Positions 3,184 to 33,590 of a stretch of 64,000 bases of DNA are shown here, piece by piece. How positions within the stretch are numbered: position 1 is the first letter of the stretch; each line of letters begins with the position of its first letter. The notes beneath the pieces were generated by a model, which searched no databases, was not told the DNA's origin, and saw only the letters and a list, made by a program, of their open reading frames with translations. Source of the DNA: Neobacillus massiliamazoniensis (GTDB lineage Bacteria; Bacillota; Bacilli; Bacillales; Cytobacillaceae). The DNA lies in the NCBI RefSeq assembly GCF_001048695.1, contig NZ_CVRB01000002.1, positions 496,001 through 560,000 on the forward strand, read 5' to 3'. The position numbers were made by a program, and so were the translations under genes.

Positions 3184-4809
3184 CTAATTTTTCATCATTA
3201 ATTCATTTTCCCTTTGATAGACAATTTCTCCATCAATAATCGTTGCCTCTACTTTCAAATCCTTAATACGGTCTGGTTTAGCTCGTAAAATACTTTCATT
3301 TAAAACAACTAAATCAGCTAATTTCCCCACCTCTAGGCTGCCTTTAATATCTTCTTCAAAACTTGCATAAGCACCATTCCATGTGTAAAGTTTAATAGCT
3401 TCTAATACACTAATGGATTGATTAGTGCCAACTTCGGCCCCAAATTGGCTTTTTCTATTAACTGCAGTATGAATTCCTAATAAAGGGTTAAAATCAGTAA
3501 CCGGCGCATCTGAACTACCTGCAGCAATAATACCTTTATCAATATAATCACGAGCAGCGTACATATAATTAACACGTTCACCATAATTGTGAACATATAT
3601 CTCGCCATATTCATATGGAAATGGTGGGTTTGGAATAGGGATAATTTCAAGTTGTTTCATTCTTTCTTGTAAATCTGGGGTTGAAATCCCGGCATGTTCG
3701 ATTCGATGACGGTGATTTTTCCTTGGAGATTCTTTTAACGCTCTTTCTACGCAATTTAAATACATTTCAATGGCTTTATCACCTTGAGCGTGTACGGTAA
3801 TTTGATAGCCCTTTTTATGTGCTTCACCTAAAACTTTGTATATTTCTTCCTCACTATAATAAAGAATTCCGGATTTGGTAGGATCGCTGGAGTATGGTTC
3901 TCGAGTTGCAATCGTTGGACCAGAGCTGCTTCCATCTAAAAATATTTTAGCCGGCCCGACTCTAAATTTCTCATCCCCTGTACCAGTGACGATCCCTGCA
4001 TTCATCATTTTATTTACAAATTTATCGGACTCATTTATAGTACCAATTATTGCATATACCCGAACACGGATTTCTTTGTTTTTTATAGCTGTTTGTAACA
4101 AACGATAACTATTAGAATCAGAAGTACCTGCTTCATGAATACTCGTGATACCACCTGAAATGAAGTGATCCGATGCGATTTTAACAGCTTTCATAAGTTC
4201 AGCATCTGTATAGCTCGCAACCTCATTCATCTTCATATTTGCAGCTTCAAATAATTTACCTGTAAGGTCCCCATGCTCATTTTTTTCAATTATTCCACCT
4301 TGAGGATTCGGTGTATTTTCGTCAAATCCAGCCTTCTCCATTGCTGCTGTGTTTACGATACAGATATGTCCACATGTACGAGAAATGATGATTGGATGAT
4401 CAGTAGAAATTGCATCAAGCTCAGCAATCGTTGGATACCGCTTTTCCATTATCGTGGTTTCATTAAACCCCCATGCTCTTATCCATTCACCTTTTGGAGT
4501 TACTAATGCTTTTTTCTTAAGATCATTCAGCAAAGCTGCAACAGAGTCGATGTGACTTTCTTTACAACTGATATTCAACTGATTAACCCCATATAAAATC
4601 AGGTGTAGGTGAGAGTCAATAAATCCAGGAAGAAGGGATTTTCCTGCTAAGTCAATGACTTCAGTCTCCTCCCCAATAAAATCCTTCATTTCTAAATTTG
4701 AACCAACTCCAATTATACGATTATCCTTTATTGCTACAGATTCTACTATTGAATTTTGTTTGTCTGCTGTAATAACTTCACCATTGATAAATACTAGATT
4801 AGCTTTCAT
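3184..4809 (-). CDS. metal-dependent amidohydrolase, YtcJ type (amidohydrolase family 3)
   Basis: A 541-residue protein of the amidohydrolase superfamily, similar in size and layout to B. subtilis YtcJ. The N-terminal beta-sandwich is followed by the metal-binding FIDSHLHL motif (H67, H69). Further histidines lie in TVHAQGD and HRIEHAG, and a late aspartate in SSDAPV. The C-terminal GKLADLVVL closing strand is typical. The ATG at 4809 is chosen over the GTG six bases upstream because of its spacing from AAGGATG. No signal peptide. The cluster suggests sequential hydrolysis of an amide-containing compound together with the symporter and nitrilase, but the substrate is unknown. Confidence 0.85.
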   Translation of the reverse strand: MKANLVFINGEVITADKQNSIVESVAIKDNRIIGVGSNLEMKDFIGEETEVIDLAGKSLLPGFIDSHLHLILYGVNQLNISCKESHIDSVAALLNDLKKKALVTPKGEWIRAWGFNETTIMEKRYPTIAELDAISTDHPIIISRTCGHICIVNTAAMEKAGFDENTPNPQGGIIEKNEHGDLTGKLFEAANMKMNEVASYTDAELMKAVKIASDHFISGGITSIHEAGTSDSNSYRLLQTAIKNKEIRVRVYAIIGTINESDKFVNKMMNAGIVTGTGDEKFRVGPAKIFLDGSSSGPTIATREPYSSDPTKSGILYYSEEEIYKVLGEAHKKGYQITVHAQGDKAIEMYLNCVERALKESPRKNHRHRIEHAGISTPDLQERMKQLEIIPIPNPPFPYEYGEIYVHNYGERVNYMYAARDYIDKGIIAAGSSDAPVTDFNPLLGIHTAVNRKSQFGAEVGTNQSISVLEAIKLYTWNGAYASFEEDIKGSLEVGKLADLVVLNESILRAKPDRIKDLKVEATIIDGEIVYQRENELMMKN

Positions 4810-4956
4810 AAACACACATCCTTCTCATATTATTTGAAAATTAAGTTAATTAATCTACTAATAATAGTATTATTTTATTAAAGCGCTGTCATTAAACAGT
4901 TGGTAAGATTTTTTTCAAGAGCTATTTCACAATCCGTAAAAAATATAAAAGTAAAC

Positions 4957-4988
4957 AAGGGCTACCTCACAAGTAGAGGCAGCCCTTT
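4957..4988 (-). terminator. intrinsic terminator after the alkaline phosphatase gene
   Basis: On the minus strand AAGGGCTGCCTC pairs with GAGGTAGCCCTT (one G-T pair) around a short loop, 26 bp after the phosphatase stop. A T-rich tail (GTTTACTTTT) follows. Confidence 0.75.
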
Positions 4989-5013
4989 TAATCTTTATCT
5001 TTATTTTCCTTTA

Positions 5014-6345
5014 TTAATCCATAATCTGAAATAGAATCTTAGCAATATCACTGTTTTCCATTCTTCCACTAAACATATGCCTATTTAGACCATACGCATA
5101 GATTGGAACATCCTCACCTGTATGCCCTTTTGTTGTCCAGCCTGTACTGGAGTAGTGATTGATGATGTCGATGAGCGTTTGCCGTGTATTTTCTACTCCC
5201 ATTTCTAATGTGGATTGAATGTTTTTCAAGTCCTCTTCTTGAAGAGGAAAATGCATGTAATTCTTTAACGTTGTTAGATCTTTTGTTTCGTGCAAACGGC
5301 TTGCAATAACAAACGGTGTAGAAGTGATGGATTTAATCACACTTGGATTCCATTTATGGTTGCCATCACGATCGATACTCATCCCTCCAGTTGAGTGATC
5401 AGCCGTCGCAATAACAATCGTATCCTCTCTACCTAGTGCGAATTGAATCGCTTCTTTAAAAGCTGCTTCAAAGTCTTTAACCTCGCTCATTGCTCCTACA
5501 ATATCATTGTCATGCCCTGCCCAATCAATTTGACTTCCTTCCACTAAAAGAAAAAATCCATTTGGATTTTGCTTCAAGCGCTTTAGTGCAGCAATTGTCA
5601 TTTGCGATAGTGACGGGATCGTTGGATCACGATCAATTTGTTTCGGGAGTTCAATCGGTGCAAATAATCCTAGTAGCTGCTTATTCTTATTCGTGACTAG
5701 CTCGTGTAAATTTGTCACATAGCCATATTCATTTTTTACAAATTCTTCGATTAAATTTCGGTCATCTCGGCAGAAATAAGAGGTTCCGCCCCCGAGCATC
5801 ACATCTATTTTATTTTTACCATCGATTCGTTCATCGAGATAATTATCGGCAATTCGATTATATTGCTCTCTAGATTCATTGTGTGCAGCAAACGCTGCAA
5901 GTGTTGCGTGATTGATTTGACTTGTCCCAACTAGGCCAGTAGATTTCCCACGAAATTTAGCATATTCTAAAACGGTGGGGACGGCTTGTTTATTTATGTT
6001 CAAGCCAATCGCTCCGTTAAAGGTTTTAAAACCGGTTGATAAAGCTGTTCCTGCAGCTGCAGAATCAGTAATATTACTTTCACTATCTAGAGAATAGGTA
6101 GATTGGGAGCCAACAAAGTATTGATCAAATATTGTGGGATTCATGATCCCTTTTTGGGAATCATGATTAAAATAACGGAGACCAGTCGTATAAGAAAACC
6201 CCATCCCATCGCCGATGAGGAAAATCACATTTTTTACTTTCTTCGTTCTATTGAAATGATTTTGAATGATAGGATTAGATTGAATGAAAGGATTCAAACT
6301 AAAATCATGTTGCAGAACGGTGGAATTGAACAAAGATAACAGCAC
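5014..6345 (-). CDS. alkaline phosphatase
   Basis: A 443-residue alkaline phosphatase of the PhoA/PhoB type. Visible active-site motifs are NVIFLIGDGMG (metal ligand D46), TDSAAAGTALS (nucleophile S95), EGSQIDWAGHDND and ATADHSTGG. It should release phosphate from organic phosphomonoesters. The annotated GTG start gives no convincing Sec signal peptide, although these enzymes are normally exported. The few codons upstream, before an in-frame TAA, read RIKRKV, like the n-region of a signal peptide without a start codon. TTG at 6333 is another possible start. It lies downstream of the phosphonate genes, but I see no Pho box directly in front of it. Confidence 0.9.
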   Translation of the reverse strand: MLLSLFNSTVLQHDFSLNPFIQSNPIIQNHFNRTKKVKNVIFLIGDGMGFSYTTGLRYFNHDSQKGIMNPTIFDQYFVGSQSTYSLDSESNITDSAAAGTALSTGFKTFNGAIGLNINKQAVPTVLEYAKFRGKSTGLVGTSQINHATLAAFAAHNESREQYNRIADNYLDERIDGKNKIDVMLGGGTSYFCRDDRNLIEEFVKNEYGYVTNLHELVTNKNKQLLGLFAPIELPKQIDRDPTIPSLSQMTIAALKRLKQNPNGFFLLVEGSQIDWAGHDNDIVGAMSEVKDFEAAFKEAIQFALGREDTIVIATADHSTGGMSIDRDGNHKWNPSVIKSITSTPFVIASRLHETKDLTTLKNYMHFPLQEEDLKNIQSTLEMGVENTRQTLIDIINHYSSTGWTTKGHTGEDVPIYAYGLNRHMFSGRMENSDIAKILFQIMD

Positions 6346-18192: not shown

Positions 18193-18251
18193 AACATTAT
18201 GAAGATACTGGAAAACAGGGTTTGTTTCAAATCGGAATGAAATTTGACAGT

Positions 18252-18629
18252 CGATAAGCTACCGTTTTTTCGTTTGTCCTTTGTTTTTGGTAGCTTAGGA
18301 CCTTTCTAAGCTACCGTTTTTTCGTTTCCCACCTGTTTTCGGTCGCTTAGAACCTCGATAAGCTACCGTTTTTTCGTTTGTCCTCTGTTTTCGGTCGCTT
18401 AGAACCTTTATAAGCTACCGTTTTTTCGTTTGTCCTTTGTTTTCGGTCGCTTAGAACCTCGATAAGCTACCGTTTTTTCGTTTGTCCTCTGTTTTCGGTC
18501 GCTTAGAACCTCGATAAGCTACCGTTTTTTCGTTTGCTTTATGTTTTCGGCGCTTAGAACCTTTATAAGCTACCGTTTTTTCGTTTGCCCTCTGTTTTCG
18601 GGCGCTTAGAACCTCGATAAGCTACCAGT
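18252..18629 (+). repeat. tandem array of about seven 52-bp terminator-like hairpin units
   Basis: The word AAGCTACCGTTTTTTCGTTT recurs about every 51-53 bp, seven times, followed by a truncated eighth copy ending AAGCTACCAG. Between copies lies TTTTCGGTCGCTTAGAACCTC. Read on the plus strand, CGGTCGCTTA pairs with TAAGCTACCG (9 of 10) and is followed by T6, so each junction has the form of an intrinsic terminator. The first unit has a perfect GGTAGCTTA arm. It lies between the Pho-box promoter of the PHP gene and the 3' end of arsR. No gene in it. Confidence 0.9.
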
Positions 18630-18661
18630 TGGTTTGATTCTTTGAATAAAAAATTAAAATG

Positions 18662-26117: not shown

Positions 26118-26450
26118 GGGTATTAAGGAAAAAGGATGTTCCAAATAGAGTGTCACCCCTACAACCTATATGGTCACCAAAACCATATTGGTGACCGTTT
26201 TTCCTTTTCTCTTTCGGTTTCGGTCACCAAAACCATATTGGTGACCGTTTTTCTTTTTCCCTCTCGGTTTCGGTCATCAAAACCATTTTTGGTGACCGTT
26301 TTTCTTTTTCTCTCTCGGTTTCGGTCATCAAAACCATTTTTGGTGACCGTTTTTCTTTTTCTCTCTCGGTCTCGGTCATCAAAACCATTTTTGGTGCCGT
26401 TTTTTCTTTTCTCTCTCGGTTTTTCGGTCACCAAGAGCCTTTTTCTCAAA
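26118..26450 (+). repeat. leader-plus-array element, copy 1 (about five 50-51-bp hairpin units)
   Basis: A leader of about 55 bp (from GGTATTAAGG through GTGTCACCCC to the first unit) precedes units starting near 26171, 26221, 26271, 26322 and 26373, plus a degenerate last unit near 26427 that begins GGTCACCAAGAG. Each unit is GGTCACCAAAA-loop-TTTTGGTGACC (middle copies GGTCATC) then GTTTTTC and a pyrimidine-rich spacer with TCTCTCGG. The same leader and terminal unit occur at 33111-33590. On the plus strand each unit looks like an intrinsic terminator. It lies between the heme monooxygenase and dbpA. Confidence 0.9.
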
Positions 26451-32942: not shown

Positions 32943-32963
32943 TCTGAGCTTGAAAACCAACAC

Positions 32964-33003
32964 AAAAAGCCCCTATCCAATTCTGTTTGGATAAGGGCTT
33001 TTG
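32964..33003 (+). terminator. terminator of nhaK
   Basis: AAAAGCCCCTATCCAA and TTGGATAAGGGCTTTT form a strong stem 22 bp after the nhaK stop, followed by T residues. Confidence 0.88.
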
Positions 33004-33011
33004 ATCATTGA

Positions 33012-33110: not shown

Positions 33111-33590
33111 GGTATTAGGTGAAAAGGATTATCCAAGTGTCACCCCCATAATCTATCCGGTCACCAAGACCCTTTTTGGTGACCGTTTTTTCTTTTCTCT
33201 CTCGGTTTTGGTCACCAAAACCATTTTTGGTTACCGTTTTTTCTTTTCTCTCTCGATTTTGGTCACCAAAACCATTTTTGGTGACCGTTTTTTCTTTTCT
33301 CTCTCGGTTTTGGTCACCAAAACCATTTTTGGTGACCGTTTTTCCTTTTCTCTCTCGGTTTCGGTCACCAAAACCATTTTTGGTGACCGTTTTTTCTTTT
33401 CTCTCTCGATTTTGGTCACCAATGCCCTTTTTGGTGACCGTTTTTCCTTTTCTCTCTCATTTCCGGTCACCAAAGCCCTTTTTAGTGACCGTTTTTCCTT
33501 TTCTCTCTCGGTTTCGGTCACCATAACCCTTCTTTGTGACCTGTTTTCCACTTTTTCTCCATTTCGGTCACCAAGAGATAAAACAATTTT
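33111..33590 (+). repeat. leader-plus-array element, copy 2 (eight 51-bp hairpin units)
   Basis: The leader (GGTATTAGGTG ... GTGTCACCCCCATAATCTAT) matches the one at 26118. Units start at about 33160, 33211, 33262, 33313, 33364, 33415, 33466 and 33517. A degenerate ninth at 33567 begins GGTCACCAAGAG, as in the other copy. Each unit has arms GGTCACCAAAA / TTTTGGTGACC followed by GTTTTTTCTTTTC and TCTCTCGGTTTT. The 51-bp length keeps all frames open, which creates spurious repetitive ORFs. The rest of the gap up to 33737 is AT-rich and holds the kumamolisin promoter. Confidence 0.92.

Follow-up and report, generated by a model that had tools for sequence, protein, structure and literature searches.

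The window, a stretch of 64,000 nucleotides from the draft genome of Neobacillus massiliamazoniensis (G000; 5.6 Mb), contains three tandem arrays of an intergenic hairpin repeat, which we read, with a probability of about one half, as a replication-polar hairpin satellite at the DNA level that would grow and spread via single-stranded DNA at the fork. This reading rests on a 51–52-bp unit, stem arms that covary between arrays and a 10.4-bp component of GC content, and on the finding that the arrays are oriented by replichore and seldom lie between divergent genes. What is new is the joint set: near-fixed length without fixed sequence, covarying stems, helical GC content and replichore orientation occur together in no repeat class known to us. 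A preliminary description had proposed an undescribed leader-plus-array element. Its novelty stands, in that no description of these arrays was found in the open-access literature and the available parts of PMC4060949, PMC3733652, PMC2817692 and PMC6006769 do not describe them; its leader-plus-array form had to be given up.

Tandem arrays in the window

The arrays and their adjoining features are as follows.

18251..18651, plus strand: array 3, 52-bp units of another stem family (GGTCGCTTA..TAAGCTACC) of the same class (TRF)
26118..26171, plus strand: "leader" before array 1, the left-hand half of a palindrome that occurs dispersed as a separate element, outside the array
26172..26423, plus strand: array 1, five units of 50–51 bp, each a hairpin GGTCAYCAAAACCAT..GGTGACC and a T-rich linker of about 25 nt (TRF)
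26426..26437, plus strand: terminal half unit GGTCACCAAGAG of array 1 (read from the sequence)
33111..33158, plus strand: second copy of the leader-like half palindrome, before array 2
33159..33566, plus strand: array 2, eight units of 51 bp (TRF and eight matches of covariance model R1)
33566..33577, plus strand: terminal half unit GGTCACCAAGAG of array 2, identical to that of array 1 (read from the sequence)

The two arrays of five and eight units first reported were recovered from the sequence, by TRF and by the covariance model, whose matches in array 1 lie at 26172, 26222, 26272, 26323 and 26374. Array 3 gave seven R1 matches (18289–18651), and its pyrimidine strand is opposite to both flanking genes. 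Two unit hairpins from arrays 1 and 2 folded at -14.3 and -16.4 kcal/mol, each beating 200 of 200 shuffles, which bears out the proposed hairpin; the stem length of 11 bp does not apply throughout, several window units having 9–10 pairs or a mismatch. The sole match of the window to Rfam at gathering score was a purine riboswitch (RF00167, 58207–58306, minus strand), and the arrays gave none.

As first described, a similar leader-like stretch precedes arrays 1 and 2 and the same half unit follows both. The claim of an element with fixed ends failed by the test that its proposer had set: the leader gave 20 genome matches at E ≤ 5, and 18 of these have no adjoining array, the exceptions being the two window copies. 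One further match (L044) has an array about 1.4 kb off, and 17 of the 20 have none within 1.5 kb. Because leader matches elsewhere stand without an adjoining array, the leader is part of a separate element. Both palindrome halves (AAAAAGGATGTYCC...GGRACAYCCTYTTT) occur at L019, L044, L048 and L049, and L046 has the same half as the leader; these dispersed AAAAAGGATGTYCC... palindromes are terminator-like and lie near position 1500 of the five loci. As to the suggested role as a regulated leader for dbpA, 1 of 29 other dbpA loci (L075) had an array in the 1.5 kb upstream, and that array belonged to another family and was oriented the other way. Palindromes of a further dispersed repeat, GGTGCCTGACAC, were seen upstream of dbpA in L066, L071 and L079.

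Unit length

In a sample of G000 (the window and 40 stretches of 20 kb at even distances, 864 kb in total), the period was exactly 51 or 52 in 19 of 44 intergenic tandem arrays and in 0 of 22 tandem arrays within ORFs; the latter, including one of period 54 (L136), were left out of the intergenic period count. Extrapolation from the 19 arrays gives about 120 array loci per genome for G000. Across 2.56 Mb from G000 and other genomes, 45 of the 46 intergenic arrays with periods of 45–58 had a period of 51 or 52, five of the 45 being orthologous copies of one array; period 51 was confined in this sample to G000 and G054. The spacings of individual units vary more widely: in G000, 165 of 185 are 51 or 52 and the others 48–60. 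A TRF-independent self-similarity scan, reporting lags with two or more segments, returned lags of 51 and 52 (12 segments each), 50 (three), 21 and 42 (two each) and 101–104 in G000, and 51/52 and 103/104 plus 21, 77 and 55 (two segments each) in other genomes.

Arrays with shorter units were also seen. The window has 20-bp-unit arrays (TATGTGCCGTTTTT...) at 102–459, one of several 20–24-bp families in G000, and L286 of genome G053 has 16 copies of the 20-bp unit GTTCGGTCGCTTTCGCCGAA at 4689–5040.

Hairpin anatomy and covariation

On its pyrimidine strand, the unit mostly reads GG-K-C-R-N5-loop-N5'-Y-K-A-CC (24–27 nt), followed by a pyrimidine-rich linker of about 25 nt, in which T-tracts lie around positions 3–6, 11–13 and 22–24. 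A second stem class, TGTCC..GGACA, was also observed. Units of 52 of 77 arrays (49 distinct arm pairs) were aligned, anchored only on the outer motif, which the other 25 arrays lack; 26 of the 77 had been chosen for likeness to the window array, and 24 of these have period 52 and two 53.

The alignment revealed that arm positions 6–9 are Watson-Crick paired in 169 of 196 cells across the 49 arm pairs (mean 91.7 and maximum 116 in 5000 shuffles, which ignore the relatedness of the arrays). Positions 5–9 covary between arrays, while positions 3–4 stay at shuffle level though restricted to K and M. Cells with changes on both arms numbered 75, compared with 23.9 when shuffled and at most 21 when slid, in units picked for best pairing. 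Within single arrays, stem pairing did not exceed the within-array shuffle (2185 vs 2179, sd 4.9), giving no excess of compensation; in 22 of 24 arrays, the linkers have diverged faster than the stems (11.8% vs 6.9% of cells off the array consensus).

We take the unit to be a hairpin with a tolerated mismatch step at the K/M positions. Selection seems the likelier cause, because correction by template switching would be expected to act on the K/M step as well. On the pyrimidine strand, G-T mismatches exceeded A-C mismatches by 48:22 among related units (per array, the unit with most pairs) and by 8:5 between consensus units, an excess that would favour folding of the strand other than the lagging template. 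At L004 (1200–1900), an array lies beside a 5S-rRNA-like sequence, and its stems shift from GGTAGCTTA to GGTAACCAA unit by unit.

Helical component of GC content

GC content within the unit showed an excess at 10.4 bp, a period that fits five times into the unit; across 59 distinct units, its z was 10.3. This excess appeared separately in the 38 class-A units (those with the outer motif) and the 21 non-A units, each above 1000 of 1000 control samples, and 10.4 bp was the strongest of harmonics 1–13 in only 6 of the 38 class-A and 10 of the 21 other units. A second peak at 6.5 bp was present in class A (z=4.7 over all 59 units); for GC dinucleotides, this peak (z=7.0) was higher than that at 10.4 bp (3.3). 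The helical component suggests that some protein reads the duplex.

Orientation and gene context

Among the matches listed for five single-contig chromosomes, 53 of 56 array loci, clustered by hand, were oriented opposite to the GC-skew leading strand (p=8e-13); a sixth genome, G010, had no match. Under strict assignment, which set aside 22 of the 56, the figure was 32 of 34 listed loci. Within G000, 16 of 18 loci were oriented by replichore, a count that leaves out C1 972300, C1 997400, C3 1013850 and contigs C7, C8 and C9 and that draws partly on the same arrays as the comparison with locus majority given below. The polarity of arm mismatches, which is independent of linker composition, was non-zero in 22 of 48 arrays and agreed with the orientation in 15 of the 17 of these with |GC skew| ≥ 0.04. 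GC skew and gene bias in G000 turn from minus to plus twice, at C1 ~1.0–1.1 Mb and at C2 ~0.77–0.85 Mb, where one origin is expected.

Gene direction was compared for 25 arrays, leaving out the weak single match L176 (E=0.05). The pyrimidine strand was opposite to the locus majority gene direction (at least 70%) in all 19 arrays for which there was such a majority (17 loci, three of the arrays lying in the window); of the six in loci below 70%, five were opposite and one (L132) was the same. Adjacent genes gave no such rule: with co-directional neighbours, the pyrimidine strand was the same as the genes in four arrays and opposite in 12 (p=0.08), and a wider set scored by AT skew had 14 same and 15 opposite. 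Window arrays 1 and 2 follow the locus majority, not their adjacent genes. The indifference to adjacent transcription together with the orientation to replication points to function or spread at the DNA level, at the fork, and argues for a fork-polar DNA-level element and against a terminator array or an RNA leader.

Firmicute leading strands are purine-asymmetric, and the leading strand here was purine-rich, which could contribute to the orientation of the arrays. The asymmetry was weak in control intergenic DNA: mean AT skew was +0.248 in the arrays (23 of 28 positive) against +0.022 in 536 control windows.

Arrays were rare in gaps between divergent genes (3/43 vs 99/391 in the background, p=0.007; G000 alone, 2/18 vs 70/296, p=0.38) and somewhat commoner between convergent genes (11/43 vs 55/391, p=0.07). 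In the 29 co-directional cases, they lay closer to 3' ends (median 92 vs 176 bp).

Distribution and spread

Model R1, built from 34 units and searched in 150 relatives, matched 80 of them at E ≤ 0.001. These comprise 58 of 61 Neobacillus genomes, G000 among them (three of the 58 gave a single match), 15 of the 29 genomes from the family's other genera, and 7 of the 60 genomes left, of which five gave one match each that may be due to chance; the kinship of 50 unlisted genomes in these counts was taken from sort order. G053 and G054 carry 52- or 51-bp arrays by TRF but are not among the R1 matches listed, which shows that the class extends beyond what the model captures. G000 has at least 143 units at E ≤ 0.01 (150 candidates scored), nearly always in arrays. 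Outside these groups, 574 kb of sequence from other genera, mostly Paenibacillus (59 named loci), contained no such arrays, and plasmids (two queries) and phages (one query) gave no array match.

Five relatives share an array upstream of an antiporter gene, flanked by a terminator-like stem on one side and a second palindrome on the other, and by eye L192 has the same flanks without the array. Unit number differs between orthologous arrays, in agreement with the variable unit number initially proposed. In three orthologous arrays, identity was 0.89–0.92 within and 0.89–0.91 between arrays, which gives no sign of homogenisation. In N. rhizosphaerae (L182), a diverged array lies downstream of the antiporter gene, as does window array 2; its two model matches are separated by 105 bp, a third unit was read by eye in the interval, and each has another stem.

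The 54 flanks of 27 arrays gave four matches between arrays: three spanned 21–30 bp and the fourth, at 86%, spanned 42 bp; with so few, there is no general array boundary. Flanks are shared by two array pairs, L004/L013 (right flanks, 42 bp) and window arrays 1 and 2, and arrays may sometimes be copied with flanking DNA, to judge from these sequences.

Comparison with known repeats

Mycobacterial MIRU/VNTR minisatellites are likewise intergenic tandem arrays with units of about 50 bp and variable copy number; neither hairpin covariation nor a helical rhythm or a polarity relative to replication is known to us for them. CRISPR arrays likewise have partly palindromic repeats at regular spacing, but the linkers here are conserved rather than unique (11.8% of cells off the array consensus in 24 arrays) and Cas1 (PF01867) had no match in G000, which upholds the initial exclusion of CRISPR. 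The bcr1 element of Bacillus cereus and other MITE-like repeats are similarly small, dispersed and structured; they are 70–300-bp elements with terminal inverted repeats, according to the available part of PMC3733652, whereas the arrays here consist of 52-bp tandem units. REP/BIME elements are the closest known kind and are considered below.

Interpretation and alternatives

As a fork-polar satellite, the unit would form its hairpin in the single-stranded DNA of the fork; for that reason the complementarity of the arms, not their sequence, would be kept. Unit number would change at the fork by slippage or template switching. The process would use one fork strand, so that new loci would be seeded, or would survive, in a single orientation. 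Single-stranded folding alone leaves the helical phasing unexplained; the register is probably maintained for a protein, to which the five-turn spacing would present successive units on one helix face. The search for a partner among Y1 transposases and Cas1 in G000 found none.

The main rival is a static architectural site. Units in duplex or cruciform form would be bound in register by a nucleoid or topology protein, which would insulate transcription units, and the hairpin symmetry would reflect dimer binding or cruciform extrusion. It would account for the five-turn spacing with its 10.4-bp GC component, the restriction of the K/M positions, and the placement near 3' ends and away from divergent gaps. 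A precedent is gyrase, which binds BIME-2 (available part of PMC2817692). A dimer site nevertheless leaves arbitrary yet complementary arms unexplained, and a symmetric site is not expected to be oriented by replichore, so we regard this explanation as rather unlikely.

Movement of REP/BIME-like non-autonomous hairpins by a Y1 (HUH) transposase on lagging-strand DNA is improbable. According to the available part of PMC2817692, REP/BIME elements are intergenic imperfect palindromes, many per genome and clustered, and the arrays share these traits with REP/BIME/REPIN elements and their TnpA-REP (RAYT), with more than 100 imperfect intergenic palindromes in G000. Single-strand Y1 transposases use the lagging-strand template, which their elements insert into and leave (available part of PMC6006769); we would expect such use to orient elements, as the arrays are oriented by the fork. 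Presence or absence of an array at one site also fits, as does the distance of some 4 kb that separates one Y1 gene from an array (C1:993012 and C1:997241). The arrays differ from REP/BIME in being head-to-tail, 51–52 bp in period, free in arm sequence and replichore-oriented. Neighbouring units lie on one strand rather than alternating, opposite-strand R1 matches being overlapping and lower except at L156 (a near-symmetric unit, both strands alike), and only one clear solitary unit was found (C1:972294). No GTAG or CGTC tag occurred within 6 nt of the hairpin foot (0/34 units), and the 2.2–3.4 kb around each of the seven Y1 (PF01797) matches in G000 held no R1 match or 45–58-bp array. The Y1 loci read (L020–L022, L024, L025 and most of L023; L026 overlaps L025) were IS200/IS605-like, with TnpB or its remnants.

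The preliminary description named a transcription barrier among the possible roles of the terminator-like units. The terminator form that it noted is seen in the sequence of arrays 1 and 2, where hairpin and T-run passed a simple terminator scan in 9 of 13 units (4/5 and 5/8; 0.6–0.7 per region in shuffles), and terminator function may apply to single arrays, not to the class. As a general account, the barrier is very improbable: orientation follows replication rather than adjacent genes (4 vs 12, or 14 vs 15 by AT skew), array 3 opposes both neighbours, in several families no T-run follows the stem, and a terminator-like stem (about 32960–33005) already precedes array 2.

Neutral minisatellites from replication slippage, oriented as a by-product of purine asymmetry, would fit the varying unit number, the purine-rich leading strand and the within-array pairing at shuffle level, but are already disfavoured and scarcely credible, as slippage gives dissimilar sequences no single period, inter-array covariation or helical GC component, and control intergenic DNA is nearly without AT skew.

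The satellite reading has a possible wider meaning, which we put forward tentatively. The arrays could be a bacterial counterpart of eukaryotic satellite DNA, in which the sequence of the unit would be almost free and selection would see length (five turns), dyad and fork polarity. Recognised by a candidate fork or chromosome protein, they would help to replicate, segregate or compact the chromosome in Neobacillus and related bacteria. The arrays offer a testable handle on the birth and upkeep of repeats at replication forks and on a possible chromosome-organising factor in Bacillaceae.
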